From IMG/VR virus record IMGVR_UViG_3300020421_002737, positions 1 to 27,458 of that record: a stretch of DNA of 27,458 bases; one strand, 5' to 3'. Position numbers and translations under genes: made by a program. The notes beneath the pieces were generated by a model. The model did no database searches. It worked only from the letters and a program-made list of their open reading frames with translations, and was not told where the DNA came from. The stretch comes from a virus. This document shows, in pieces, positions 3,477 to 27,458 of this stretch (positions within the stretch are counted from its first letter, which is position 1; the number at the start of each line of letters is the position of its first letter).

Positions 3477-3794
3477 ATGGCACATTGGTCATTAGTAACC
3501 TATACAAGACCCAATACTGGAGTATCTTGGTATACCCCTGGATCAGACGTTATGACTGTAGTTAACGCACAGTTAAATAGCGACCCTAAACTTATTGAGA
3601 GTTATGAGGTAACTGAATCAGGAGACGGATTGAAACAATATTATAAGATAGCTTTTAAAGATGAATCTACATCTGAAGCTTTAGCTGAGAATGCAACTTA
3701 TTTAGCAAACGTAACCGAAAGAAATAACTATTGTACTGCAAATAATATAACTTGTAATGTACAACAATTTGGTGCTACAGAACCTACTATATAG
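3477..3794 (+). CDS. Unknown 105-residue phage protein
   Basis: The start is well supported: AAGGAG six bases before the ATG, and a perfect late promoter box 30 bases upstream. The protein begins MAHWSLVTYTRPNTGVSWYT and continues with a predicted alternation of strands and helices (VMTVVNAQLNS, LIESYEVTE, GLKQYYKIAFKDE). A helix ALAENATYLANVTERNNY leads to two cysteines in YCTANNITCNV. The layout resembles a small ferredoxin-like alpha/beta fold. The T-R-P-N-T phrase is one I associate with small marine phage proteins, but I cannot name a function. It is the only gene on the plus strand in the left part, and its end overlaps the end of the convergent acyltransferase-like gene by eight bases. 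There is no signal peptide or membrane segment. Confidence 0.75.
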   Translation: MAHWSLVTYTRPNTGVSWYTPGSDVMTVVNAQLNSDPKLIESYEVTESGDGLKQYYKIAFKDESTSEALAENATYLANVTERNNYCTANNITCNVQQFGATEPTI

Positions 3795-4347
3795 GTCTAC
3801 TTGGTAAGTTAAAATCTTTATATCCTTCAACTTTCAAAATAGCAACATTCTGCCAACACATTGTATTATCGTTAGGTTCGCTATTGCAAGTATAATATAG
3901 TTTTGGTAATATAGTAAATTGATGTTTATTTTTTAAATTCCATCTTTCAACCATTCTATACATAGCAGGTCTTCTTTTGATACCTTGTATTGAAAAGAAA
4001 GGTATTAGATTTTTTGATAGTGCTATTTCTAATTGTTCAGGAAGAAAATAAGTTGAAGCTATAGCTTTTAATTCTCTTTCATTTAGAAAATTTAATCCAC
4101 TACTACGTGCTTCTTTGAAATAATAAGTACGGTCTAATACTCTACAAAATTTAGATTCCCAACGAGGAGTTTGAAAGATACCTGACATAGCGACAATCTC
4201 ACCACCATATATTGCTGTATGATATGCTAAATAATTATCTATTCTATTTTCAAAATTATTAAAGTTAGCAGAATCATCTTTTGCCATTTCAGCTAATCCT
4301 AACATTTTATCTTTAGACTTAACTATATCATTAATTATTATTTTCAT
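3787..4347 (-). CDS. Possible GNAT-like acyltransferase
   Basis: The protein has 186 residues and is the last gene of the minus cargo operon. Features that suggest an N-acetyltransferase-type fold are an N-terminal helical half (residues 12-45), a strand segment GEIVAMSGIFQTPRW around 49-63, CRVLDRTYYFKEAR at about 68-81, and a later IPFFSIQGIKRRPAMYRMVE segment where GNATs carry their acyl-CoA region. The canonical Q/R-x-x-G-x-G/A pyrophosphate loop is not clear, so the assignment is tentative. Marine phages commonly have such proteins annotated as N-acetyltransferase. The ATG overlaps the preceding stop by one base, implying coupling to the 2OG oxygenase gene. It might acylate an amino-sugar or a protein; this is inference. 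Confidence 0.6.
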   Translation of the reverse strand: MKIIINDIVKSKDKMLGLAEMAKDDSANFNNFENRIDNYLAYHTAIYGGEIVAMSGIFQTPRWESKFCRVLDRTYYFKEARSSGLNFLNERELKAIASTYFLPEQLEIALSKNLIPFFSIQGIKRRPAMYRMVERWNLKNKHQFTILPKLYYTCNSEPNDNTMCWQNVAILKVEGYKDFNLPSRPI

Positions 4348-4955
4348 TATAAATCATCTTGTCCATTTACAGCAACAACTAATCTAATACAATCTTCTTT
4401 ACCAAAATTCCAAGCTGAGTGTGTCCAACCTTGATTTACAAAATATACAGAACCATCTGCTTTCATATTTAACAATTCAGGTTCTTCTCCTTTTCTTTTA
4501 ACAGCAGTAAACGACCATTCATTTGTTTTTAATGGTATAAAATATCTAACACTATAAGTTGTATCATAATCCATATGAGGTAATATATGAGCACCTGGTT
4601 TTTTAATTATAATTCTAGCTCTTGTTGCAGGAGATTTAAACATTTTAATTACTTCTTCTACGTATGTTCCTCTTAAACATTCCACAAGTGTTGTATAATT
4701 TCTTTCATCATATTTTACATCTCTATGACCATCTAAAGGTAAAGTGTAATTACTATTTTCTGTTAATTCTGTAATAGGTATTTGTTCGTATAACTCATTT
4801 AAAAAAGGTGTAGCGCATTTAACATTTAAATTATCTCTATACTTTACCAAGTTATCTTTATTATCTTCTATAACTTTTAAAAGTTTATCTTTATCTATTG
4901 TTAATGATATTTTTTTGTAATTTGGTAATTCTGTTCTAGTTTTATTTTTTATCAT
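4347..4955 (-). CDS. Fe(II)/2-oxoglutarate oxygenase, Asp/Asn hydroxylase-like
   Basis: The protein has 202 residues with a cupin (double-stranded beta-helix) core in the C-terminal half. The iron triad is visible: H127 and D129 in ILPHMDYD, and H179 in GWTHSAWN. The 2-oxoglutarate-binding arginine R191 follows 12 residues later in CIRLVV. R136 in SVRYFIPL is also typical of the aspartyl/asparaginyl beta-hydroxylase-like group. All catalytic residues therefore appear intact, and the protein should hydroxylate a substrate using O2 and 2OG. The substrate is unknown; neighbours (desaturase, sugar epimerase, acyltransferase-like) suggest a lipid, sugar or small-molecule target, although protein hydroxylation is the family's best-known activity. 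The start overlaps the desaturase stop by 14 bases. A GAAAGA ribosome site is present. Confidence 0.85.
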   Translation of the reverse strand: MIKNKTRTELPNYKKISLTIDKDKLLKVIEDNKDNLVKYRDNLNVKCATPFLNELYEQIPITELTENSNYTLPLDGHRDVKYDERNYTTLVECLRGTYVEEVIKMFKSPATRARIIIKKPGAHILPHMDYDTTYSVRYFIPLKTNEWSFTAVKRKGEEPELLNMKADGSVYFVNQGWTHSAWNFGKEDCIRLVVAVNGQDDL

Positions 4956-5583
4956 TTAAATATCTTTCTGCAAATAAACCACCTATATCCCATTTACCTA
5001 ATCTAATTTGTTTCCAATTATCGTGGTGTTTATCGTGATATCCTTCTCCAGCAGCAAACCAACTTATTATATGATTGGTTGTAGGACTTCCATTTTTATG
5101 TCCTAAAGTATTAAACAATCCATAAAATATAAAACTTAATACAAAAGGAATAACTATAAATCCAATAAAGAATTTAATACTAATTAATACTGCAATAATT
5201 GAACTAATAATATGTATAGTGTTATGATGTTTATGAAAAAATCTAATTCTTTTATTTTGTAATAAATCTTTAACTTCTTCTTTTTTTATTGTAGGATAAT
5301 TATACATCCACCTATTAAATAATACATTCCAAAAACCTTTATGTTTTGGTGAGTGTGGATCTTTTTCTGTATCTGAATATTTGTGGTGAGCTCTATGAGC
5401 AGCTGCCCAACCTAATGGAGACTTTGCACCTGTTAATACTATCATATATAAGGCTATAGTTTCCATTATAGGAGAGAGTTTAAAATCCATCCTATGAGTA
5501 AAGTATCTATGTAGTCCTATAGACAATCCAAAAATTGCAATAACTTGATACCATAATACTCCAAATAGTATTGTTTCAATCAT
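4942..5583 (-). CDS. Membrane fatty-acid desaturase (Delta-9-like)
   Basis: The protein has 213 residues. It would introduce a double bond into a membrane acyl chain with a di-iron centre. All histidine boxes are visible: HRYFTH (25-30), HRAHH (63-67) and HDKHH (183-187). So is the extra N-x-x-x-H (158-162, NTLGH), which supplies a further ligand in the acyl-CoA desaturase type. Hydrophobic segments lie at about 3-24, 38-58 and 124-157. It is compact beside cellular enzymes of roughly 300 residues, missing N- and C-terminal extensions rather than the core. Lipid desaturases are known auxiliary genes of marine cyanophages. An electron donor is not encoded nearby, so host ferredoxin is implied. 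The start overlaps the 43-residue gene by eight bases. Confidence 0.9.
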   Translation of the reverse strand: MIETILFGVLWYQVIAIFGLSIGLHRYFTHRMDFKLSPIMETIALYMIVLTGAKSPLGWAAAHRAHHKYSDTEKDPHSPKHKGFWNVLFNRWMYNYPTIKKEEVKDLLQNKRIRFFHKHHNTIHIISSIIAVLISIKFFIGFIVIPFVLSFIFYGLFNTLGHKNGSPTTNHIISWFAAGEGYHDKHHDNWKQIRLGKWDIGGLFAERYLNDKK

Positions 5584-5707
5584 CTTTTTGTTTTACGTCT
5601 TCCTCGTTAAATGTGTCGCCACTAGAAAAAAGTTTAGTTGTTTCTTCAGGCCAATTTATTGGTTGGCACGAAGCGTACCATTCGTCATAAGTTTTTTCTT
5701 CTATCAT
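5576..5707 (-). CDS. 43-residue acidic protein of unknown role
   Basis: This short reading frame fills the gap between the TauD-like and desaturase genes. Translation gives MIEEKTYDEWYASCQPINWP, then ETTKLFSSGDTFNEEDVKQK and a final DD before TGA. A GGAG ribosome site lies five bases before the ATG, and the stop overlaps the desaturase ATG (GATGATTGA), as for other genes of this operon. Composition is strongly acidic, with two tryptophans and a single cysteine. It has no membrane segment and no homology I can name. The coupling and ribosome site argue for real translation. It could be a small regulatory or partner protein for a neighbouring enzyme, but this is not supported by any motif. Confidence 0.65.
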   Translation of the reverse strand: MIEEKTYDEWYASCQPINWPEETTKLFSSGDTFNEEDVKQKDD

Positions 5708-5715
5708 TTGTTCTC

Positions 5716-6417
5716 CTATTCAATTGCAATTCTATGCATTAATCTTTCTTTCATATTATTAAATTCGTGTCTTTTATGTATAGTTAACCATTGTTCACTA
5801 ACAACTAAATCGCCATCTTCCCAATGATGGTCATATCTATATTTATCTTGTAGAATATGTTTTTTAAGATATTCAAATAAATCTTCTGGTATACCTTCTA
5901 TAATTTGATTAAAAGGAAAGTATAATCCTGTTAATCCCATTTTATTTTGATATACTAATTTATGAACATTATCTTTATTGTGGTGTTCGTGAAAAGTAGG
6001 ATCATCTGTATATCCACCTTTCTTAAAACCACAAGTGAAAGTTATATTAACACACTTCTTTTTAATATCCTCTGGTAAATCTTGCCAAGCTTTATAATTA
6101 TTAATCCAACTAGTGATACTTCCTTTACTTCCTTTAACAGCATATATCCATATTATAGAAGCTCTATTAGGATCACTTGGTTTGTTTGCGTGCCAATCTA
6201 AAACTTTTTTATGTCCAAATAAACCACCTTCGGTAACGTGAACTAATCCTGGAACTTCACCTTTAAACTGTTTATGTAATTCTAATTGTCTTTCTGATTT
6301 AGGTTTTTGAACTGTACCTAAAGACTCTGCTAATTTCATTTCTTCTTCCACAGATATTTTACCTAGTTTATGTACGCAAATTAAATCTGTAAAGACTTTT
6401 TCTCTAGTTATTTCCAT
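5716..6417 (-). CDS. TauD/TfdA-like Fe(II)/2OG dioxygenase with H-x-N motif
   Basis: The protein has 233 residues with a TauD/TfdA layout: N-terminal helix (residues 23-35, SVEEEMKLAESLGT), then HVTEGGLFGHKKVLDWHANK, the strand ASIIWIYAVKGSKGSITSWI, and a C-terminal EQWLTIHKRHEF...KERLMHR. H214 fits the distal iron histidine, and R225 and R229 follow it by 11 and 15 residues, the same spacing as the 2OG-binding arginines of E. coli TauD. The proximal motif is H76-A-N78 where TauD has H-x-D, so the carboxylate ligand is replaced by asparagine. It may still bind iron with a changed chemistry, or be inactive. It overlaps the upstream oxygenase by ten bases. The substrate is unknown. Confidence 0.8.
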   Translation of the reverse strand: MEITREKVFTDLICVHKLGKISVEEEMKLAESLGTVQKPKSERQLELHKQFKGEVPGLVHVTEGGLFGHKKVLDWHANKPSDPNRASIIWIYAVKGSKGSITSWINNYKAWQDLPEDIKKKCVNITFTCGFKKGGYTDDPTFHEHHNKDNVHKLVYQNKMGLTGLYFPFNQIIEGIPEDLFEYLKKHILQDKYRYDHHWEDGDLVVSEQWLTIHKRHEFNNMKERLMHRIAIE

Positions 6418-7022
6418 CTCATTAACTCAAATACTTTTTTAATACAATCATTTGTAGCTTTTAGATTCATAACTAACATTGTACAATCATTATTAAAAGA
6501 AAATATAGAATGTACTTTATTTGTATTTACAAAGTATGCTGATCCTCTATTAAAATTTAAGATATTTCCATCGTGAATAAAATACATATAACTTGGTTTA
6601 ACTTTTTTAATAGGAACAAGTATTCTTAAAAATTGTGTTTTATCTAGTGTTCTATTATCTATATGAGGTGGAAAATAACCACCTTTTTTAAAGTTTAAAA
6701 AGTGTGTTCTACATAACCAAGGTTTAAATGGTTCAACTAACTTTTGTACTTGTTTACTTTTGTAATAAACATCTGTTAATGTAGTAAAAGAATCTTCATT
6801 ATAAATTGTACCAGTTTCTTTAGACAATTCATATAAAGAATCTAAATCTTTTCCTGTAAGTTTACCATCTTCACTGGTTACACTTAATCCATATCTAGGT
6901 ATATTTTTTCTAGGATTATATCTTTTCCATTCAAAGTCTTTAATCTCTTCTAATAGTTTCATAGAGTTGCAAGTTAAATCTAACTCAATTACATCTCCAT
7001 AAGTTAATAGATTAGTAAACAT
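6408..7022 (-). CDS. 2OG-Fe(II) oxygenase-like protein lacking the usual arginine
   Basis: The protein has 204 residues. The C-terminal half resembles the 202-residue oxygenase at 4347-4955: YFPPHIDNR supplies H120 and D122, QFLRILVPIKK parallels SVRYFIPLK, and AYFVNTNKVHSIFSF supplies H171. The iron triad is therefore intact. At the place of the 2OG-binding arginine (DCIRLVV in the relative), this protein reads DCTMLVM, so methionine 182 replaces arginine. It may use another residue for the cosubstrate or have lost normal turnover. The N-terminal half is unlike any family I can name. The gene has a GGAG ribosome site nine bases before its ATG and overlaps the epimerase stop by one base. The probable reaction is hydroxylation; the substrate is not evident. 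Confidence 0.75.
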   Translation of the reverse strand: MFTNLLTYGDVIELDLTCNSMKLLEEIKDFEWKRYNPRKNIPRYGLSVTSEDGKLTGKDLDSLYELSKETGTIYNEDSFTTLTDVYYKSKQVQKLVEPFKPWLCRTHFLNFKKGGYFPPHIDNRTLDKTQFLRILVPIKKVKPSYMYFIHDGNILNFNRGSAYFVNTNKVHSIFSFNNDCTMLVMNLKATNDCIKKVFELMRWK

Positions 7023-7768
7023 TAATTTGTTCTCCTATACTTTGTAATATAGTCTTTTAACATAACTTGTGGTACCCAACCTACTGAATTTAAAAAATAA
7101 GTATCTGCTTTATTGTCTAGCCTTTCCATTTCACCTGCCTCTTGTTTTTTAGTATCAATTGAAAAGTAGTCCATTATATCTGTTAATTTGTGAGATAGAC
7201 CTGTACCTACATCTATAACTTCGCCGAAAGGAAGTAATCTTTCACTTTGAGTTATTAAATTTTGTATTGCTGAGCATACATCATCTACGTGAATAAAATC
7301 TCTTTTATGATTTGTGTTTATATAAGGAACATCATTTCTTAATATTCTAGGTATTAACATATTTTCTCTTGCGCCTGGTCCATAAACTGTAGTAAATCTC
7401 ATACCTATTGATATAGGAGGAGCAATTTGTTCTAAAGAATATTTACTCATTGCATATGGATTTCTCCAAGGCTCATATGCTGTTGATGAACTTGCATAAT
7501 ATATTCTTTTATCTTTGAAATGGTCAAATAATCTTTGACTTGCTATAACGTTTTGTGTCCAATAATCTGTAGGATTTTTAAGACTATCTCTAACACCAGA
7601 TAGACCTGCTAAATGCACAACACAATCAACATCATATTTTAAATCACAGGTTAGTAAATCATTACCTGTTTGTTTATCTATTTCAATAATAGTATGAGCT
7701 CTATCTTGTAAATAGTTTCTTAAATTTTTTCCTATAAATCCTTCTGAACCTGTTATTAATACTTTCAT
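7022..7768 (-). CDS. NAD-dependent nucleotide-sugar epimerase/dehydratase
   Basis: The protein has 248 residues and belongs to the extended short-chain dehydrogenase class. The Rossmann loop is G7-S-E-G10-F-I-G13, followed by an acidic residue after strand two (EIDKQ) that favours NAD. VVHLAGLSGV is the third strand, YASSSTAYEP (91-100) holds the catalytic serine/threonine region, and Y105-A-M-S-K109 is the Y-x-x-x-K motif. RFTTVYGPGARENM and RDFIHVDDVCSAI are typical of the sugar-binding half of UDP/GDP/dTDP-sugar epimerases. It is shorter than the usual 310-330 residues. The likely reaction is interconversion of a nucleotide sugar feeding the four glycosyltransferases of the opposite operon. 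An AGGAAC ribosome site precedes the ATG, which overlaps the upstream stop by four bases. Confidence 0.9.
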   Translation of the reverse strand: MKVLITGSEGFIGKNLRNYLQDRAHTIIEIDKQTGNDLLTCDLKYDVDCVVHLAGLSGVRDSLKNPTDYWTQNVIASQRLFDHFKDKRIYYASSSTAYEPWRNPYAMSKYSLEQIAPPISIGMRFTTVYGPGARENMLIPRILRNDVPYINTNHKRDFIHVDDVCSAIQNLITQSERLLPFGEVIDVGTGLSHKLTDIMDYFSIDTKKQEAGEMERLDNKADTYFLNSVGWVPQVMLKDYITKYRRTN

Positions 7769-8334
7769 TTTGTTCCTATTATCATATATCTATTATACTT
7801 ATCTAACTCTAGCGTTCCTTTGTATAGTATTTTTTTTAATTTTAAAGTTTTTTCAAACTCTTCTAAACTATTATGGCAGTTTATATGTTCATCAATTTGT
7901 TTATAATTATTTGATTGTAATATAATCAAAGAACCATTTTTACATCTATCAATCATATTATCTATTACTTCTTGTTTAAGATGTTCGCAAGAGGTACAAA
8001 TTACTACATTCCATTTTTCAAATTTATAATCTATTATATCTTCTATTTTAAACCATACATTTGGATAAAGTTTTTGACCTATCTTTTTTGTTATAGGATC
8101 AATATCAAAAGACTGTACTCGTTCATCTGTATATTGAGTTAATCTATTTGCTAAATGGCCATACCAACCTGCAGCCACACATATTTTTGGATTAACAAAA
8201 AGGCTGAGATATTGCTTTGACTTTTCTATTAGCCAATCTTTACTTTTTTCTTGATTGTCGTTAACTGAATTTATAATAGACTTTACTAGTCTGTCATTGG
8301 TAACGCTGTCAATCACTTTTAATATCGTATCCAT
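7765..8334 (-). CDS. Class I SAM methyltransferase-like protein
   Basis: The protein has 189 residues. A Rossmann-like core is visible: KICVAAGWYGHLANRL (about 50-65) in place of the glycine-rich SAM loop, VQSFDIDP (about 73-80) with the acidic end of strand two, KIEDIIDYKF, then NVVICTSCEHLKQEVIDNMI and a hydrophobic strand SLIILQSN. The absence of a classic G-x-G-x-G loop is common in phage methyltransferases. The N-terminal 45 residues are helical. It opens the minus cargo operon, 25 bases downstream of a perfect late promoter box, and overlaps the epimerase start by four bases. A methyl acceptor cannot be deduced. Sugar or glycan methylation would fit the epimerase and glycosyltransferases nearby (inference). 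Confidence 0.75.
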   Translation of the reverse strand: MDTILKVIDSVTNDRLVKSIINSVNDNQEKSKDWLIEKSKQYLSLFVNPKICVAAGWYGHLANRLTQYTDERVQSFDIDPITKKIGQKLYPNVWFKIEDIIDYKFEKWNVVICTSCEHLKQEVIDNMIDRCKNGSLIILQSNNYKQIDEHINCHNSLEEFEKTLKLKKILYKGTLELDKYNRYMIIGTK

Positions 8335-8341
8335 AATCTTA

Positions 8342-8349
8342 CATAAATA
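8342..8349 (+). promoter_or_regulatory. T4-type late promoter (CATAAATA) for plus cargo operon
   Basis: CATAAATA matches seven of the eight bases of the T4 late consensus and lies 27 bases before the ATG at 8377. The predicted start is near 8355. It is placed to the left of the minus-strand box at 8360-8367, so the two promoters are interleaved, with their start points only a few bases apart and pointing away from each other. Confidence 0.55.
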
Positions 8350-8359
8350 GTTGTATTAC

Positions 8360-8367
8360 TATTTATA
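8360..8367 (-). promoter_or_regulatory. T4-type late promoter (TATAAATA) for minus cargo operon
   Basis: This is a perfect TATAAATA on the minus strand, 25 bases before the methyltransferase ATG at 8334. The predicted start is near 8354. The box overlaps what would be the leader of the plus operon. The intergenic gap is only 42 bases, so both operons must be driven from here or from read-through. Confidence 0.7.
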
Positions 8368-8376
8368 AGAGATATT

Positions 8377-9252
8377 ATGAAAAGAATTATTTACAGTTTA
8401 TATGTTGATGTGCCTGAAAAAGAACATTATGGTCCTTCTAAATTCAAGTACGATACATTAGAAAAAGCATTAGAAACTAGAAACTCATTTAAAGATAACT
8501 ATAAACAATTAGTTAATGTTAAACGTGAGTATGCTAAAGATATAGGTGTACCTTTTATAATGTATGAATATGATAATCAATATCAAACATTTGAAAAAAA
8601 TTTATTAAAAGACTTTCCAGAATTAACAGGATATGAAATAATAAACTTTTACAAAATACATTTGTTATATGAACTAGCGAAAGAATATGATGAGATATTA
8701 TATTTAGATTTTGACGCTATACCTGTAACCAAAGATTGTTTCTTTACACATTGGAATCTATCTAAAGGTATTTGCGTTTATAATAATAACGTTATGGTTA
8801 ATAAAAATAATCGTACTATTGATAAAATGATACACGGTATTAGAAGTCCATCAGCAAAATATTTTAATGCTCAAGCAATGCTTATTGCAACTAATAACAA
8901 TCCAAAAAATGATGTTATTAATACAGGTATTATTGGTGCTAGAAAAGAAGACATATTAAAATTAGATTTCTTTGGCAAGTTTAAAGATACAATAGACTTA
9001 ATGACTAAATTAAAAAAAGAAGGATTAGATAATTTATATCCTCAAAATGTTATTGATATGTTTAGATATGATAATGAAACTATTTTTTCTTATAAGATAG
9101 AAGTTAATAAAGTTAACATACAATGGTTAGATACACAATGGCATTATTTTTTTGACAAACAATTTTATATACCAAAAGAAACAAAGATAGTACATACAAT
9201 TAATAAAGACTTTACTACAGTATGGAGGTATCGTGAAAAACATAATCTATAG
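8377..9252 (+). CDS. GT-A glycosyltransferase, paralogue 1
   Basis: The protein has 291 residues. It starts MKRIIYSLYVDV, a first beta strand typical of GT-A folds. The segment EYDEILYLDFDAIP places the metal-binding D-x-D at 111-113 after a hydrophobic strand. Later NTGIIGARKEDI and the C-terminal KIVHTINKDF (histidine before the end, a common second metal or donor contact) complete the pattern. It would transfer a sugar from a nucleotide donor, with metal help, in the cytoplasm; donor and acceptor are unknown. It is clearly paralogous to the next gene. The ribosome site AGAG is modest. It is the first gene of the plus cargo operon and ends 20 bases inside the next gene. Relatives are common in marine phages. 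Confidence 0.85.
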   Translation: MKRIIYSLYVDVPEKEHYGPSKFKYDTLEKALETRNSFKDNYKQLVNVKREYAKDIGVPFIMYEYDNQYQTFEKNLLKDFPELTGYEIINFYKIHLLYELAKEYDEILYLDFDAIPVTKDCFFTHWNLSKGICVYNNNVMVNKNNRTIDKMIHGIRSPSAKYFNAQAMLIATNNNPKNDVINTGIIGARKEDILKLDFFGKFKDTIDLMTKLKKEGLDNLYPQNVIDMFRYDNETIFSYKIEVNKVNIQWLDTQWHYFFDKQFYIPKETKIVHTINKDFTTVWRYREKHNL

Positions 9253-10087
9253 TATATACATTGAAAACAAAGAACCTAATTTAAGTGAAAAACATTTATT
9301 CACTAAACAACAATTAGAAAAACATTATAATAGATTAGTAGATGTTAAAAAAGAATACGCCAAACATTGTAATGCTGAATATAGAGTATATGAAAATGAT
9401 ACTTTCTATCAAAAATTTAAAAATAAATTTGATGGGTTTGAATTTGATATTATTAATTTATACAAGATATATCTATGGGAAAAATTAGGTAAAGAATATG
9501 ATAATGTTTTATATATGGATTTAGATGTGGTTCCTAATACAACTGAAAACTTTTTTGAAACTTTTGATATGAATAAAATATGCGTCTATGCTCCTAACGC
9601 CAATATAGATTCGTGGTCGCAATCAGATAGAAAGAATTATAAAAAAGGCAAGGTAGATTTTGAAACAATAATATCTCATAAAGATAAGTATAACGAATAT
9701 GTAAAAGCAGTATGTAAAAAAGCAATGTTAGCTATAGATAATAAATTTGATACTGATTATCTAATAGCAAATACAGCAATACTTGGAGGCAATTCTAGTG
9801 CTATATCAAAATTAAGATATACAGAAAGACTAGATGAAATGTCATATACTTTAAAGAAAGCAAAAGAGGAACAGTTTTTTGGTGAAACAATATCAAAACT
9901 TTTCTTTGCAAATAATGAAATATTTGTACACTATCTATTAGATAAAGATAATATAGATTGGTATAATCTTCCTAAAGAATGGCATACTTATTTAATGAAA
10001 AATGATAAGATAACAAGTGATTTAAAATCTGTAAAGATGATACATTTAATCAATAAAAGATTTGAGGAGTTGTGGAATGTTATATAA
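9233..10087 (+). CDS. GT-A glycosyltransferase, paralogue 2
   Basis: The protein has 284 residues with a GTG start at 9233 preceded by GGAGG (9224-9228), and overlaps its upstream paralogue by 20 bases. Shared landmarks with paralogue 1 are the start (MKNIIYSIYIEN), VDVKKEYAKH, DIINLYKIYLWEKLGKEYDN, the D-L-D metal site at 96-98 in LYMDLDVVP, NTAILGG, and the end KMIHLINKRFEELW. Divergence in between, with an inserted charged stretch around residues 115-160, suggests different specificity after an old duplication. The role would be a second glycosyl transfer in the same pathway. Donor and acceptor are not deducible from sequence. Confidence 0.85.
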   Translation: MKNIIYSIYIENKEPNLSEKHLFTKQQLEKHYNRLVDVKKEYAKHCNAEYRVYENDTFYQKFKNKFDGFEFDIINLYKIYLWEKLGKEYDNVLYMDLDVVPNTTENFFETFDMNKICVYAPNANIDSWSQSDRKNYKKGKVDFETIISHKDKYNEYVKAVCKKAMLAIDNKFDTDYLIANTAILGGNSSAISKLRYTERLDEMSYTLKKAKEEQFFGETISKLFFANNEIFVHYLLDKDNIDWYNLPKEWHTYLMKNDKITSDLKSVKMIHLINKRFEELWNVI

Positions 10088-11183
10088 TTCTAGTATTGAT
10101 TTTGATGTAATGTTAGATATAACAACTAGATGTAATGCAGGTTGTCCACAATGCCATAGAACTGATTTAAATGGTTTAAAAAAACAATCTTGGTTACCTG
10201 ATATTAATTGGGATTTAGAAACATTTAAGAAAGCATATCCAGAAAATGTAATTAAAAGATTAAGAGTAGCAGACTTTTGTGGAACCTGGGGAGATCCTAT
10301 TGTAAATAATAATATTATTGATATGGTAAAATATATTAGAGATACTAATAATGAAACAAAAATTAATATTAATACAAATGGGTCAATGAGAAATGATGAG
10401 TTTTGGTGGAATTTAGGTGTAGCTGGAGATAAAAATTTAATTGTTGTTTTTGCTATAGAAGGTATCAATCAAAAAATGCACGAAGTTTATAGACAGAATA
10501 CTTATTTAGAAAAAATATTAAATAATATGAATATACTATCAAATACAAAAGCTAAAATTTATACTCAAACTTTAATATGGAAACACAATGAAGATTACCT
10601 AGATGAAATAGAAAAACTATGTGTAGAACACGGATCAGTTAGACATAATGTTATGGCAACTGATAGATTTGGAAATACTAAAGAATTAAAATTTACAAAG
10701 ACTGATGGAACTAAAGAAGTATTAAGAAAGACAGGTGAAACATTTGAAGATAAAGATGAGTTTATAGTATTAAATAGGAGAAGATTTGTTAGAAAGAAAA
10801 AGTATATGGGAACTGCTGATAAAAAATTAATAGAAAAAATAAGAAAAGCAAAACAAGTTATGGAAATTGTTTGTGAGTGGGGAGAAAAAAATAAAGTTGT
10901 TGTTAATCCTGACGGACAAGTTTTACCTTGTTGTTTCTTTTGCAATTCTCATTTTTATAATAAACAAGTACCTGAAGCAGCTAAACATTTTGTGGAACAT
11001 CCTGTAATGTTAGAATATAAAAAATATGAAAAAGAATTAAATGTATTTAATAATAATCTAATAGATATAATGAAACACAAATGGTTTCAATCAACCCTAC
11101 AAGATAGTTGGTCAAAGACTAAACCAGTCTACCAATGTGAAAAATTTTGTGGTAAATGTAATAAGAGTTATGAAAGAATCTGA
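10077..11183 (+). CDS. Radical SAM protein with SPASM-like C-terminus
   Basis: I place the start at the ATG 10077 because GAGGAGT (10064-10070) sits at proper spacing; an in-frame TTG at 10062 would fall before that ribosome site. The product has 368 residues. The radical SAM cluster motif C19-x3-C23-x2-C26 (RCNAGCPQC) binds the 4Fe-4S that cleaves SAM. FCGTWGDPIVN takes the place of the usual GGEP strand. Extra cysteines occur in NPDGQVLPCCFFCN (about 277-290) and at the very end (CEKFCGKCNK), a SPASM-like arrangement for auxiliary clusters. SPASM enzymes modify peptides, proteins or sugars; with glycosyltransferases on both sides, a sugar or glycan precursor is plausible but not shown. It overlaps its neighbours at both ends. 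Confidence 0.85.
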   Translation: MLYNSSIDFDVMLDITTRCNAGCPQCHRTDLNGLKKQSWLPDINWDLETFKKAYPENVIKRLRVADFCGTWGDPIVNNNIIDMVKYIRDTNNETKININTNGSMRNDEFWWNLGVAGDKNLIVVFAIEGINQKMHEVYRQNTYLEKILNNMNILSNTKAKIYTQTLIWKHNEDYLDEIEKLCVEHGSVRHNVMATDRFGNTKELKFTKTDGTKEVLRKTGETFEDKDEFIVLNRRRFVRKKKYMGTADKKLIEKIRKAKQVMEIVCEWGEKNKVVVNPDGQVLPCCFFCNSHFYNKQVPEAAKHFVEHPVMLEYKKYEKELNVFNNNLIDIMKHKWFQSTLQDSWSKTKPVYQCEKFCGKCNKSYERI

Positions 11184-12303
11184 TATAAAAAAATTCTACG
11201 AGAATAACAAGTCATATTGTTCTATGCCTTTCAAAGAAATATATGGAGATAATGCAGGTAGGTATAAATTATGTTGCCACGCCAGCGAACATCTTCCTAT
11301 ACAGAAATACAATACAAGTAATACTACACCATTTAAATATTTTAAATCTCCTGAAATGGAAGAGTTAAGAAATAAAATGCTAGCAGGTGAAAAAATTGAC
11401 GCTTGTAAAGTATGTTATAAATTGGAAGAAACAGGTGAATCATATAGAACTGGAAAATATAGACACAAATACGGTGTTGATTTAGAACCTAATAAGATAG
11501 GATTAAAGTTAAGAATACACGGATCATTTTGTAATTTAAGTTGTTATATGTGCCATCCATATAATTCATCTACAAGAAGAAATGAACTAAAAGCTATTTA
11601 CGGAAAAGAGGGAGTATGGGGTACACCGTTTGCAACTGTTAAACATAAACAATGGAATGATATTATAAAAGATATATTAGATAATATTCATTTAGTTGCT
11701 TATATGAATATAACAGGAGGCGAACCTTTACAGTTACCAAAACATTGGGAGTTTTTAGATTTAATACCTGAAGAACACGCAAAACATATAACATTATCTT
11801 ACGACACTAACCTAACAGAATTAAGATATAAAAATAAATCTATATTTTCTTATGTTGATAAATTTGAAAGAATTAATTTAGGTGTATCGTGTGACCATTA
11901 TGGAAGAAAATTAGATTGGATGCGATATCCTATTGATAGAGAAAAGTTTGAACACAATTTAAAAGAAGCAAAAGGTTTAATTAAACAATTAAATTGTAGT
12001 ACTTCTTTATTAAACATTTTTGATTTAAATGAAATATATAATTATTATATGGATAATTTTGGTATACCTACAACATTTGTTAATATAGTTAGAGGACCTA
12101 AAATGTTATCAATAAGAAATTTAAAACAAAAGGATAAAGATATATTATTAAAGAAATATGAAAAACTAGCGTTCTATGACTATATAAAAGCAGAATTATT
12201 ATTAGAACCTTTTGATAGTGAATTTAAATTAATGAAAAAATATTGTGATGACTTATCTAAACATAGAAAATTTAACTGGAGAGAACTTTGGAATGAGTAT
12301 TAA
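11170..12303 (+). CDS. Radical SAM protein with N-terminal twitch domain
   Basis: The start at ATG 11170 (AAGAG just upstream) is preferred over an in-frame GTG at 11137 that has no ribosome site; it overlaps the previous stop by 14 bases. The product has 377 residues. Residues 15-95 carry a cysteine set, C17, C35, C36, C79 and C82, in YCSMPFKEIYGD, YKLCCHA and ACKVCYKLEETGESYR, the signature of a twitch (half-SPASM) domain. The radical SAM motif C121-x3-C125-x2-C128 (FCNLSCYMC) follows, and NITGGEPLQLP near 180 is the GGEP SAM-binding strand. The domain order is reversed from ordinary SPASM enzymes, matching the group named twitch domain-containing radical SAM proteins. The substrate is unknown. 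Confidence 0.85.
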   Translation: MKESDIKKFYENNKSYCSMPFKEIYGDNAGRYKLCCHASEHLPIQKYNTSNTTPFKYFKSPEMEELRNKMLAGEKIDACKVCYKLEETGESYRTGKYRHKYGVDLEPNKIGLKLRIHGSFCNLSCYMCHPYNSSTRRNELKAIYGKEGVWGTPFATVKHKQWNDIIKDILDNIHLVAYMNITGGEPLQLPKHWEFLDLIPEEHAKHITLSYDTNLTELRYKNKSIFSYVDKFERINLGVSCDHYGRKLDWMRYPIDREKFEHNLKEAKGLIKQLNCSTSLLNIFDLNEIYNYYMDNFGIPTTFVNIVRGPKMLSIRNLKQKDKDILLKKYEKLAFYDYIKAELLLEPFDSEFKLMKKYCDDLSKHRKFNWRELWNEY

Positions 12304-13045
12304 AATTTGTACATTATATTTTGAAGGCAAATATACGCCAGACTATGTTGAAAAACTATACAATAGTTTAAAAAGAAATTGCACTATACCATTTGAGTTT
12401 ATATGTTATAGTGATAATCCTAATGTTAAAGCTGATGTAGTAATACCTTTAAAACCACATAGTGATATTAAATTACATTGGTATAAATTATCTTACTTTT
12501 CACCATTATTTGCTAATCAAAATCCTGAAGATGAAATAATTATTATGGATATTGACCAAATAATTGTAGGTAATGTAGATGATATGATTGGTTATCCTGT
12601 TGGTGATAATGAATTAGTATCATACAATAAATGGTGGGGTGGTAAACCTACGTATGGTTTAAAATTAAATGGTGGTTTTTTAAAATTTAAATCTGGTAGT
12701 TGTCAAGTTATATGGGACGAGTTTATAAAATGTCCTGAAGTTTGGCAATTGAATTGGTATAAAACTGGTGTTGTTCATTACAAATACTATGGCGAACAAA
12801 ACTTTATAAACTGGATGTGTGATAAAAACAATATAAAATTAAAATTAATGCCACCTGAATGGGTATGTAAATTAACTAATAAAGAAGATGAAGATAGAAA
12901 TAATAACATTGAATATATGAAAAGATTTAATAAAGATTATATGATATTAGATAAACCAAATGATGATATAAAAATTGTACACTTTGCTAATCCTAATGCT
13001 AATATACACACTAGTAAATACTCTTGGATAAAGGACTATTGGAAA
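12293..13045 (+). CDS. DxD glycosyltransferase, marine phage type
   Basis: The ATG at 12293 has GGAGAG (12278-12283) nine bases before it; upstream in-frame starts overlap the previous gene more deeply and lack such a site. The product is 251 residues (stop TGA at 13046-13048). It opens MSIKICTLYFEGKYTPDYVE, then FEFICYSDNP, KLHWYKLSYFSPLFANQNPE, and the metal site D86-I-D88 in IIMDIDQIIVGNVDD. NGGFLKFKSG and the final KIVHFANPNAN are further GT-A marks. It likely transfers a sugar from a nucleotide donor. It is not close to the two upstream paralogues except in the D-x-D region. Proteins with this opening occur in many marine phages. It overlaps its neighbours by 11 and 4 bases. Confidence 0.85.
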
Positions 13046-13614
13046 TGAGAATAATTTGTGTTAACACAGGTACTAAATTTGATTCTTGGTATACAAGAAA
13101 TCTAAAACATATGATTGATACTTACTCTGGTTTAAAGTATGATGAGTTTGTAATTATTAAAGATGAAAATTATAGAGGTGTATTTAATAAACTCCAGATG
13201 TTTGATAGATTTAGAGATGGAGAAAACTTATACTTTGATTTAGATATTTGTATCTATGATAAAGTACCTAATTTAATTAGAAAAGATTTAACAGTATTAC
13301 ACGCTTGGTGGAGAGATAGAGCTCATACGTCATTTAATTCATCTGTTATATCTTGGACTGGTGACCAATCACACGTATATAAAACATTTAAAAAAGATTG
13401 GTATTATTTACAAGGTAAATATTACAAAGGTATTGATGAAATGTTAGAAAAAGACTTTGATGTAAAGACTTATGATAAAGTTTGTTATTCAATACAAGAC
13501 AATGAATACGAACCTAAAAATACAGATTATAGTATTATGTTATTTAATCAAAGACAATTTATGATGGAGCCAGGTTGGTCTGGTTGGTGGTCTAATTACT
13601 TTCTTCCCAGATAG
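13045..13614 (+). CDS. Small DxD glycosyltransferase
   Basis: I start at ATG 13045, with AAGGA (13031-13035) nine bases upstream and an ATGA overlap with the preceding stop. The product has 189 residues. It begins MRIICVNTGTKFDSWYTRNL, has DEFVIIKDENYRGVFNKLQM, and the metal motif D65-L-D67 in NLYFDLDICIYDKVP. HAWWRDRAHTSFNSSVISW is the acceptor-side loop, and the end is tryptophan-rich (GWSGWWSNYF). At 189 residues it is short for a complete GT-A enzyme and may be a minimal phage version. It ends the plus operon and overlaps the end of the convergent virion gene by 23 bases. It is probably the fourth glycosyltransferase of one pathway. Confidence 0.75.
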   Translation: MRIICVNTGTKFDSWYTRNLKHMIDTYSGLKYDEFVIIKDENYRGVFNKLQMFDRFRDGENLYFDLDICIYDKVPNLIRKDLTVLHAWWRDRAHTSFNSSVISWTGDQSHVYKTFKKDWYYLQGKYYKGIDEMLEKDFDVKTYDKVCYSIQDNEYEPKNTDYSIMLFNQRQFMMEPGWSGWWSNYFLPR

Positions 13615-22189: not shown

Positions 22190-23650
22190 TTAAAATTCTA
22201 TAATCAATTTGATATTTTCGGTCTGGTCTGCAGCTCTTGTAATTGGCGCTCTATTCTCAACATACACTACGTCTCCACTACCGTGGTCTAATTCAGAAGC
22301 TGAGTAACCACTAGAAAATGATTGACTATTAACTGTTCCTGTTGTTGTTGCTGGTGTTAAAGTTGCTGATGAACTTGCACCTGTAATTATATTAGTGCCA
22401 CTAAAAGCTGTTTGATTACCGTTAGTATCTACTCCCTCGTCATTGTGTCTTGTTTGCATAAAGTAAAGAATTTTATTTGTTGAGTCCCACTCAATAACTT
22501 TACCTACTGCACCAGTTGTTGCTTGTGTTATTTTCTCGTCAACTGTAAAGTTTGACGTATTAGAAGCTCCTACAACAGCTCTTGTTGCTCTTAATGTTGT
22601 AGATGTAGCAGCCGAACCTCCAGAACTTGGATCTCTCATTAGAGATACTTTTCTAAAATCGTTAGCAACGGTTACGTCACCAGAGTTTGCTGATTCAGTT
22701 CCTTCTAAACTTGTATTTAACATTACAAAGAAACCACCTAATTCTTCTACTGCATTAAATCCGTGTCCACCTTTTGGTTCAATCATTACATCTAATTCTG
22801 TACTAATTAATGATCCACCACCTTGAGCATTTATATCTGCAAGTCTAATATATCCATAAGTATAACCTGTTCCTGCGTTGGTTACTGTTACCGCTGAAAC
22901 GGCACCTGAAGCAATCGTTACCGATACTTGTCCATTTGAACCGTCTCCTCGTATTGCGATACCTGTATGTGTACCATCAGTACCAGCAGAACCTGCTGTT
23001 TTAATTTTTACTACGTTAATTGCGCCATCAATAGCAGCCGAACTAACTGTTGAGTTTGTTGAAACTGCCATAAAGTCAACTGATAAGAAATCAGCTTGTT
23101 GAGAAGCAGATAAAGTGTACATATATTTCCACTTGTATCCGTCAGCAGTTGATAAAATTGTTGTTGATGTTCCTGTTGGTTCAACTGTTGAAGTTGCACC
23201 ATTATTATTATCTAAACATTTGTATACGTTTCTTGCAGCTGATAAAACATAAAAAGTTGCGTCATATAAAGTAGACGCACCACTATTTGATGTTTGCGCT
23301 GTTGTTGTTCCAGTAATATATTCTCCGTAGTCGTGTCTGTAATAATCGTATACTGTGCCAGTTGTCCAATTTCTTCTAGGAACTACGAAAGAAACGTTAT
23401 TAGCTGTTACCTTTTTACAAGCTAACATATCGTCATATGTGAAATTTTGTGTGTTCTCGTTATCTGCTGGGGTTACAGGTAAAGCGTCTGTACCTTCGTT
23501 ATTTGTTCTTCCGTCACCTCTTGTAGAAGTAGTAAATCCTTGAGGTCTTCCTATTCCTAAATAGAAAGTATTACCTGAAGCTTCAGAAAACGCTTCTTGG
23601 AATTGTTCCGAGTTGTGTATTCTGAATTTATTTGTTATTATTGCTGGCAT
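22190..23650 (-). CDS. 8: Baseplate wedge protein gp8
   Basis: The protein has 486 residues. I recognise T4 gp8 from three stretches: the start (IITNKFRIHNSEQF against T4 IVTSKFRTEK), the early VVPRRNW (T4 VIPRRDW), and the very end VENRAPITRAADQTENIKLI (T4 MENRPPIIMAMDQTEEINIL, from memory). gp8 forms part of each baseplate wedge, contacting gp10/gp7 and gp6. It is about 150 residues longer than the 334-residue T4 protein; the extra material lies in the C-terminal half, including a repeat related to the DUF4815 protein. A late promoter box lies 18 bases upstream, and GAGGATAA serves as ribosome site. The symbol follows the T4 name. Confidence 0.88.
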   Translation of the reverse strand: MPAIITNKFRIHNSEQFQEAFSEASGNTFYLGIGRPQGFTTSTRGDGRTNNEGTDALPVTPADNENTQNFTYDDMLACKKVTANNVSFVVPRRNWTTGTVYDYYRHDYGEYITGTTTAQTSNSGASTLYDATFYVLSAARNVYKCLDNNNGATSTVEPTGTSTTILSTADGYKWKYMYTLSASQQADFLSVDFMAVSTNSTVSSAAIDGAINVVKIKTAGSAGTDGTHTGIAIRGDGSNGQVSVTIASGAVSAVTVTNAGTGYTYGYIRLADINAQGGGSLISTELDVMIEPKGGHGFNAVEELGGFFVMLNTSLEGTESANSGDVTVANDFRKVSLMRDPSSGGSAATSTTLRATRAVVGASNTSNFTVDEKITQATTGAVGKVIEWDSTNKILYFMQTRHNDEGVDTNGNQTAFSGTNIITGASSSATLTPATTTGTVNSQSFSSGYSASELDHGSGDVVYVENRAPITRAADQTENIKLIIEF

Positions 23651-26090: not shown

Positions 26091-26833
26091 TAGTTAAATT
26101 GTGCTCCTCCCGTTGCTCCGTGTGATACTGTAATTGTAAACTCTCTATCTGTCGTTTGACTTTCATTATCCGTTGCACGAATGGTAAATGTATATGTAGT
26201 TGTTGCTGTACTTCCACTTTCAGTTCCTGAAATAGTACCAATAGTTGAATCACCATCTAAACTAAATCCACCAGGTAAAGAACCTGATTGTAAACTATAA
26301 CTTGACACTGCTGTGCTATCATCATCATAAGCGAGTAAAGTAAATGATTGAGTTGAAGCAGCAGCTATTGTGCCTAAACTACCTGCAGCTGTTGACCATA
26401 CTGGTGCTAAACTAGCAACTAAAATTGCTGTTGAACTTCTTACAGCATTACCATCATTATTTTCTACTCTTACAAAATAACTACCTGCACTTAAATTTGT
26501 TGTAACCGTTAAACTTGTTGCGTTATTAAAGGTAACAGCACTTGCAACAGTTACCGCACCTGTTGAACTTATTAATTCTACTTTAGGTGTATTAACAAAA
26601 TTTGTACCTGCTAATGTAAATGAAGCACTTGTACCTGGTGCAATTGCTAAACTTGTAGATGTTATAGTAGGTTTTGTTTCTCCTACACTAACAGAACCTC
26701 CTAATGAAACTGCTGAACCATTAATTGTAATACTTGAATTTACTAAATCAGCATTTTCAATAGAAGTATCAACTACATCTATTTTACCATCTGTAGTAAT
26801 TGTATTCGCAAATTTTCTAGTTTGTGTTCCCAT
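26090..26833 (-). CDS. Ig-like domain virion protein
   Basis: The protein has 247 residues. After a short N-terminal fibre-attachment part (MGTQTRKFANTITTDGKIDV), residues about 53-137 look like an IPT/TIG domain (KPTITSTSLAIAPGTSASFT, LAGTNFVNTPKVELISSTGA, SAGSYFVRVENNDGNAVRSS). Residues about 140-240 look like a cadherin-like He_PIG domain (GSLGTIAAASTQSFTLLAYD, SSYSLQSGSLPGGFSLDGDS, TTYTFTIRATDNESQTTDRE). Ig-like domains of this kind decorate phage tails and capsids and weakly bind surface sugars. It overlaps the upstream stop by one base. The distance to a good ribosome site suggests coupling. It is probably a decoration or fibre protein. Confidence 0.8.
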   Translation of the reverse strand: MGTQTRKFANTITTDGKIDVVDTSIENADLVNSSITINGSAVSLGGSVSVGETKPTITSTSLAIAPGTSASFTLAGTNFVNTPKVELISSTGAVTVASAVTFNNATSLTVTTNLSAGSYFVRVENNDGNAVRSSTAILVASLAPVWSTAAGSLGTIAAASTQSFTLLAYDDDSTAVSSYSLQSGSLPGGFSLDGDSTIGTISGTESGSTATTTYTFTIRATDNESQTTDREFTITVSHGATGGAQFN

Positions 26834-27458
26834 TAGCTTAAATACCTCACAACTATTTCTGCATTAGCAGAAGGTGCTAATACAAAGGTTAATGTTGTTC
26901 CTGAAATCGTGTAATCATCTGTTGGAACTAAACATATTCCATTAACAAAAACTAAAACATCATCAACGGTTCTTCCAGAATTTATTGTAATTGTACTTGT
27001 TGAACCATCTCCTGTGTTTGATTTATCTGTGGTTACATTTCTTCTTCCACCTATTACTTCAACAGCGTGTCCCATAAGTGAGTGTGCTGTACATTGATAA
27101 TAAAGTAAAGAAGGTGTATCACTATCAATTGTTATTTGAGTATATGCACCAGAACTTCCTGGTGTACCTGCAATGGTAACGTTAGTATCATACTCAACAT
27201 TTTTCATTGAATCTCTATAAAATTTTAATGGGTGACCAGTGTTTGAACCATCTGATTGGTTAAATTTCCAAACACCTGGAGTTAATTGTAATAATGGAGA
27301 TTCATCTCCTTCAATTAAATATCCTGTACTAGAACCAGTACCATAATTATAATGAGCACTTGTTTTAGTAGCTGCGGTTACTGTAATTTCTTGTATTGCT
27401 GAATCTGCCGAAGAACGTAAACCAATATATTTAACATCTGATATTCTTTCGTTTGCTT
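26833..27458 (-). CDS. Cupredoxin-like phage virion protein, 5' end outside window
   Basis: The frame is open from the window edge to 26833, about 207 residues; the internal ATG at 27207 is not its true start, because reading through it continues the same fold. Visible order: VWKFNQSDGSNTGHPLKFYR, VTIAGTPGSSGAYTQITIDS, then SLLYYQCTAHSLMGHAVEVI. The last is a C-x2-H-x2-M sequence; with the earlier GHP histidine it supplies His, Cys, His and Met, the four ligands of a type 1 copper site, spaced as in amicyanin. The last 65 residues (GDGSTSTITINSGRTVDDVL, VFVNGICLVPTDDYTISG) form a common phage-fibre strand unit. This cupredoxin-like domain recurs in marine phage tail proteins; copper binding is unproven. 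Confidence 0.75.
   Translation of the reverse strand, partial: ANERISDVKYIGLRSSADSAIQEITVTAATKTSAHYNYGTGSSTGYLIEGDESPLLQLTPGVWKFNQSDGSNTGHPLKFYRDSMKNVEYDTNVTIAGTPGSSGAYTQITIDSDTPSLLYYQCTAHSLMGHAVEVIGGRRNVTTDKSNTGDGSTSTITINSGRTVDDVLVFVNGICLVPTDDYTISGTTLTFVLAPSANAEIVVRYLS

Follow-up and report, generated by a model that had tools for sequence, protein, structure and literature searches.

A conserved type 1 copper ligand set in a cupredoxin domain of marine phage tail connector proteins

A cupredoxin domain with all four ligands of a type 1 copper site is encoded, in a single copy, at one end of a viral contig of 27,458 bases (IMG/VR record IMGVR_UViG_3300020421_002737, analysed over its whole length and hereafter called the window). 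Its fold, its ligand set and their conservation, its homology to blue-copper proteins, the gp9-type N-terminus of its closest full-length relative and the occurrence of the same domain in cyanophage gp9 proteins all emerge directly from the computational comparisons described here. The reading that we favour, with a probability of roughly 0.55, is that this cupredoxin, its type 1 copper site intact, is a module of a T4 gp9-type connector, the protein that joins fibres to the baseplate, in a myovirus near pelagiphage Mosig, and that copper stiffens the fibre joint. Copper binding by the tail domain is in this respect something that we infer.

The coding frame lies on the minus strand, contains no stop up to the contig end and specifies 207 residues, the C-terminal part of a longer protein (Table 1). 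The ATG at 27207, taken as the nominal start, lies inside the gene, since the frame runs off the contig and its closest full-length relative (L001:2795-4561), 88% identical over the shared part, has 589 amino acids. The initial annotation had extended the frame upstream of this ATG, to the codon of the first His, and placed four copper ligands in it; the frame does continue, and all four codons are found in it in order. The C-x2-H-x2-M spacing is that of amicyanin, as that annotation also recognised. A pattern of the form H-x(35-60)-C-x2-H-x2-[MQ] matches once in 71 six-frame open reading frames of at least 60 amino acids, against 0.036 matches expected after residue shuffling, which rules out a chance occurrence of the ligand motif.

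Table 1 Features of the cupredoxin-containing gene, in window positions
Feature	Position	Strand	Remarks
3′ part of gp9-type tail fibre connector/adaptor gene (most likely assignment)	26833..27456	-	Open frame to contig edge; 207 aa and stop; truncated by contig end
His75, N-terminal copper ligand (GHPLKF)	27232..27234	-	Codon CAC; aligns with ligand His of blue-copper proteins
Cys122, thiolate ligand	27091..27093	-	Codon TGT; aligns with ligand Cys of blue-copper proteins
His125, second His ligand	27082..27084	-	Codon CAC
Met128, axial ligand	27073..27075	-	Codon ATG
Cupredoxin-fold domain (residues 21-137)	27046..27396	-	AlphaFold2, Foldseek, VIA-align, hhalign
C-terminal domain (residues 139-207), anchor/adaptor-like	26836..27042	-	VIA-align match to CBA120 TSP4

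The predicted structure is that of a cupredoxin. An AlphaFold2 model of the window protein, computed with 56 relatives in the alignment, has a mean pLDDT of 82.7 and values of about 90-98 over most of residues 21-137. When compared with the PDB by Foldseek, the model ranked the blue-copper protein rusticyanin first (E 2.4e-5, probability 1.00). VIA-align gave rusticyanin a Z of 9.6 (rmsd 3.0, 114 aligned residues, model range 3-135), followed by the blue-copper domain of nitrite reductase (Z 8.3) and laccases (Z about 7); a VIA Z below 8 can mean merely a common arrangement, and the rusticyanin value is above that level and spans the whole domain. The model, the Foldseek match and the VIA Z of 9.6 agree on the Greek-key beta-sandwich of cupredoxins. 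Met128 would face Met148 of rusticyanin if the alignment is ungapped there, as the VIA range pairs model residue 135 with rusticyanin residue 155.

Profile comparison links the domain to copper proteins at the level of its ligands. An hhalign comparison between the phage-domain profile and alphaproteobacterial Copper-bind (PF00127) proteins gave P = 1.8e-7 and a probability of 94 in local mode. The type 1 ligand order, His ... Cys-x(n)-His-x(n)-Met/Gln, is present and aligned with true blue-copper ligands: both His ligands and the Cys are in register, and the Met pairs across a two-residue gap because the pseudoazurin spacing is longer (H-x4-M). The phage profile alone detects a protein of a 1.4-Mb alphaproteobacterial genome (L142/L148; E 2.4e-5), which is a pseudoazurin by NCBIfam TIGR02375 (1e-30, slightly below the cut-off) and a Copper-bind protein by Pfam. 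Searches of the PDB gave no copper protein when phmmer was run with the window protein, and pseudoazurin 3tu6 with a profile, at an E of 0.079 that is suggestive only.

Assignment to an existing family is a separate matter. The window protein has no match to PF00127 at E up to 5 (cut-off 21.2 bits), a family that matches 3 of the 56 relatives with a best E of 0.0036, and it scores 18.7 bits over residues 23-135 against the At5g54830-like domain PF25489, below the cut-off of 27 bits. The amicyanin model TIGR02657 (cut-off 110 bits) was not reached either, there being no NCBIfam match for the window protein. The domain is a diverged cupredoxin, and we file it in neither PF00127 nor PF25489 because neither cut-off is reached on the window protein.

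Relatives of the domain are encoded in 298 IMG/VR stretches and 53 phage records. Conservation was scored in 50 representatives below 62% identity, with a mean of about 31%. Position 75 is His in 46 of these 50; among the representatives aligned at the remaining sites, position 122 is Cys in 41 of 43, position 125 is His in 42 of 42, and position 128 is Met in 39 of 41 and Gln in the other two. Stellacyanin, a natural type 1 copper variant, has Gln as its axial ligand. A wider set of 61 diverse representatives has all four ligands in 55 (two of them with Gln, HCHQ) and has lost the Cys-His-Met set in six, the three residues being present together or absent together across the 61 copies. About three changes between metal-competent and metal-less states are counted on the tree, many forks of which are unresolved. 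Some 60 copies occur in 21 isolate phages, with the triad in 37 and absent in about 21; the third copy of S-CAM4 is the sole isolate-phage copy with a lone Cys and a displaced His. The homologue searches behind these counts are biased towards copies with an intact motif, and a search with the ligand-free N-terminal half, meant as unbiased, found only the nearest relative. In both representative sets and in the isolate-phage copies, neither Cys nor Met is freely replaced. With the predicted cupredoxin fold, this answers both checks named in the initial annotation in its favour, as far as the predictions reach. That three side chains are kept or lost together is what one would expect of a metal site. 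Fold prediction, comparison with blue-copper profiles and the conservation pattern all support the earlier proposal that a phage tail protein here has a cupredoxin domain with every type 1 copper ligand.

This pattern also bears on two readings in which copper has no dedicated site. His, Cys, His and Met could form a hydrogen-bond or packing network inherited from a copper ancestor and bind no metal, which would be in keeping with the free reuse of folds in phage tails and with the retention of the first His in some copies after the loss of the other ligands. Such a network should tolerate piecemeal change, however, and Cys, His and Met are virtually invariant at this low mean identity and are lost jointly; we consider it improbable. 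Alternatively, the site may bind another metal, or copper adventitiously from seawater, with a role limited to metal buffering. Sites made of Cys, His and Met accept Zn(II), Ag(I) and Hg(II) as well, and virion assembly occurs in a cytoplasm with little free copper. Yet the sole axial substitution observed is the Met to Gln change of a natural type 1 copper variant, and all four ligands of the type 1 set are present with the amicyanin spacing, which leaves another metal, or adventitious copper, as a decidedly unlikely occupant.

The gene that carries the domain sits in a tail region like the one in Pelagibacter phage Mosig EXVC030M. At 22190-23650 the window encodes a gp8-like baseplate protein with 75.6% identity to its counterpart in Mosig, the order fibre protein, gp8 and VrlC-like protein is common to both, and the Mosig orthologue of the truncated gene is annotated as a putative tail fiber protein. 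The N-terminus of the window protein lies beyond the contig end; that of L001 matches phrog_677, baseplate wedge tail fiber protein connector (4e-25), and scores 24.7 bits against T4_gp9_10_N (PF07880), for which the cut-off is 25. The C-terminal domain aligns with residues 186-250 of CBA120 TSP4 (VIA Z 9.4, rmsd 1.8, 65 residues, 25% identity) and also resembles domains in the T7-like fibre/tail complexes 8dsp, 8es4, 8vbx and 9efk, with VIA Z values, TSP4 included, from 9.4 to 6.7. An anchor-type domain of this kind would fit a site where another fibre protein attaches. The window protein is most likely a gp9-type connector or adaptor and not a fibre tip, given the gp9/gp10-like N-terminus of L001. 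The initial annotation spoke of a virion tail protein and of a tail fibre; the former stands, and a connector or adaptor is a better description than a fibre tip, in view of both the L001 N-terminus and the anchor-type domain after the cupredoxin. The position at the fibre joint rests on sequence, because the AlphaFold2 model of full-length L001 (8 rows in the alignment) has a pLDDT of 49 and is useful only in the cupredoxin and C-terminal domains.

In marine cyanophages the same cupredoxin domain ends gp9, the baseplate wedge tail fiber connector. A tblastn search with one cyanophage gp9 matched 414 records, 339 of them cyanophage entries by name, and among the matches listed the cyanophage rows mostly extend to the cupredoxin, whereas T4-like coliphages match the N-terminal part only. 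Eleven gp9 proteins were read individually (ACG-2014a, S-RIM2, P-SSM3, Syn33, S-ShM2, ACG-2014b, P-RSM4, S-N03, P-TIM68, S-SZBM1 and P-RSM6). All eleven have the cupredoxin domain with its four ligands, at the very C-terminus in ten and some 50 residues before the end in S-N03, and T4_gp9_10_N lies at the N-terminus of the cyanophage gp9 proteins where this was tested. The domain is widespread at the C-terminus of cyanophage gp9, and the initial annotation had already noted that similar sequences are common in marine phages. Two phage proteins (L022:3233-4963 and L052:2738-4903) pair a YHYH-type domain with a cupredoxin, that of L052 having Gln at the Met position.

Several cyanophages encode four or five copies of the domain, and metal-less cupredoxin paralogues occur in gp7-like and other structural proteins of phages whose gp9 domain is metal-competent (L102-L126, L194-L218). 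The fold itself therefore does not need copper. Because the fold can do without the metal, the retention of intact sites suggests, from sequence comparison, that they are kept for a metal-dependent role; this may be joint stability in seawater, our first choice, or, as a second choice, a redox or recognition role. A purely structural need for copper is weakened, since metal-less paralogues in the same phages let the fold serve in a tail without it. The pelagiphage HTVC008M has no copy of the cupredoxin domain and, unlike Mosig, no fibre gene between the gp7-like and gp8 genes. Mosig, which has the domain, and HTVC008M infect the same host strain, and so copper is not needed to infect that host.

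These observations cut both ways for a functional rather than structural copper, which would sense the cell surface or periplasm, through reduction of Cu(II) to Cu(I) or copper hand-over, and aid fibre deployment or receptor recognition as a copper counterpart of the proposed iron 'Trojan horse'. Metal-free paralogues in the same genomes indicate that the site is selected for something besides the fold, HxH tail fibres that bind iron, with a Trojan-horse role, have already been suggested in marine phages (PMC11705849), and tandem domains of the phage cupredoxin family are encoded in small alphaproteobacterial genomes, presumably those of SAR11-like bacteria. The gp9-type or adaptor context, by contrast, places the domain near the baseplate and not at the fibre tip, and HTVC008M manages without it on the same host. 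We regard this role as possible, if rather unlikely. A more specific idea, which we hold as a slightly longer shot, is that in marine T4-like phages fibre deployment or host recognition is governed by the copper state of the fibre connector (bound or free, or Cu(II) or Cu(I)); infection would then respond directly to copper and redox conditions in the ocean.

Under the favoured reading, that of a copper-stiffened fibre joint, the site would take up copper during or after virion assembly, because a free Cys would otherwise face oxidation outside the cell. The bound metal would clamp the ligand loop of the domain, and the clamped loop would in turn stiffen the joint where fibre proteins attach. 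A photosynthetic or respiratory type of electron transfer is unlikely, because no redox partner is apparent in the virion.

Two groups of known proteins come close to the domain. Small blue-copper proteins (rusticyanin, amicyanin and pseudoazurin; PF00127) resemble it in the cupredoxin beta-sandwich, in profile homology, and in a mid-chain His followed by C-x2-H-x2-M near the C-terminus. The phage domain differs from them in lacking an apparent redox partner, in lying inside a multi-domain virion protein below PF00127 detection, and in its Tyr-rich LYYQCTAH loop. T4 gp9, the connector between baseplate wedge and long tail fibre, has the gp9/gp10-type N-terminus common to the full-length relatives and the annotation used in cyanophages, but it is a cupredoxin that forms the C-terminus in marine phages.

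Cupredoxins are well known, among them the copper-bearing electron carriers of bacteria and plants, and metal-binding phage tails are known for iron, through HxH motifs in the tail fibres of T4 (gp37) and Alteromonas phage R22Y (PMC11705849). Those fibres share conserved tail metal ligands and a marine setting with the phage cupredoxin, but bind octahedral iron in trimeric fibre shafts, whereas a Cys-containing type 1 copper fold is found here. In the open-access literature searched we found no report of a cupredoxin, blue-copper or type 1 copper site in a phage virion, in line with the initial annotation, which knew of none of copper in a tail fibre. If the tail connectors of marine cyanophages and some pelagiphages do hold complete type 1 copper sites, copper would be a constituent of particles that rank among the sea's most abundant, metal-bearing phage tails would include copper besides iron, and infection would be tied to a trace metal with toxic effects on cyanobacteria.

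Cyanophages also have a cupredoxin in plastocyanin, encoded by petE as an auxiliary metabolic gene; it resembles the host protein and is a redox carrier that stands alone, unlike the virion domain. The two can be confused by gene callers. In Synechococcus phage S-SCSM2R (PQ898602.1), a gene annotated PetE (L184:2803-3309) belongs to the virion cupredoxin family, adjoins peptidase and FhaB-like genes, and scores 21 bits against TIGR02657, far from its cut-off of 110 bits. Plastocyanin auxiliary genes in cyanophages may thus be over-called, and the case is a warning that virion cupredoxins can be mistaken for them.

Cellular relatives are few. Prokaryote genomes were searched by profile because a pattern scan of genome contigs with a narrower alignment, the first one being too diverse for it, gave two MAG contigs only. 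In one alphaproteobacterial class, 7 of 385 genomes gave a match (two of them weak, E about 1e-5), as did 5 of 199 in a sample of a planctomycete phylum. Four alphaproteobacterial genomes of 1.3-1.4 Mb (L132, L133, L134 and L135) encode a chromosomal protein of 430 amino acids with two complete type 1 copper-type domains, which looks like a secreted surface protein. The planctomycete-phylum relatives L175:1204-2046 and L176:1330-2043 appear secreted and have a longer C-x4-H-x2-M loop followed by dockerin-like repeats. The cellular copies are scattered over several parts of a tree with weak support, from which a direct host-to-phage transfer of the domain cannot be read.

Elsewhere in the window, a fatty-acid desaturase-like protein with the histidine boxes HRYFTH, HRAHH and YHDKHH is encoded between phage tail genes (4942-5583, minus strand), and a block of glycosyltransferase-, epimerase-, hydroxylase- and radical SAM-like genes (3787-13614) lies within the structural gene region.
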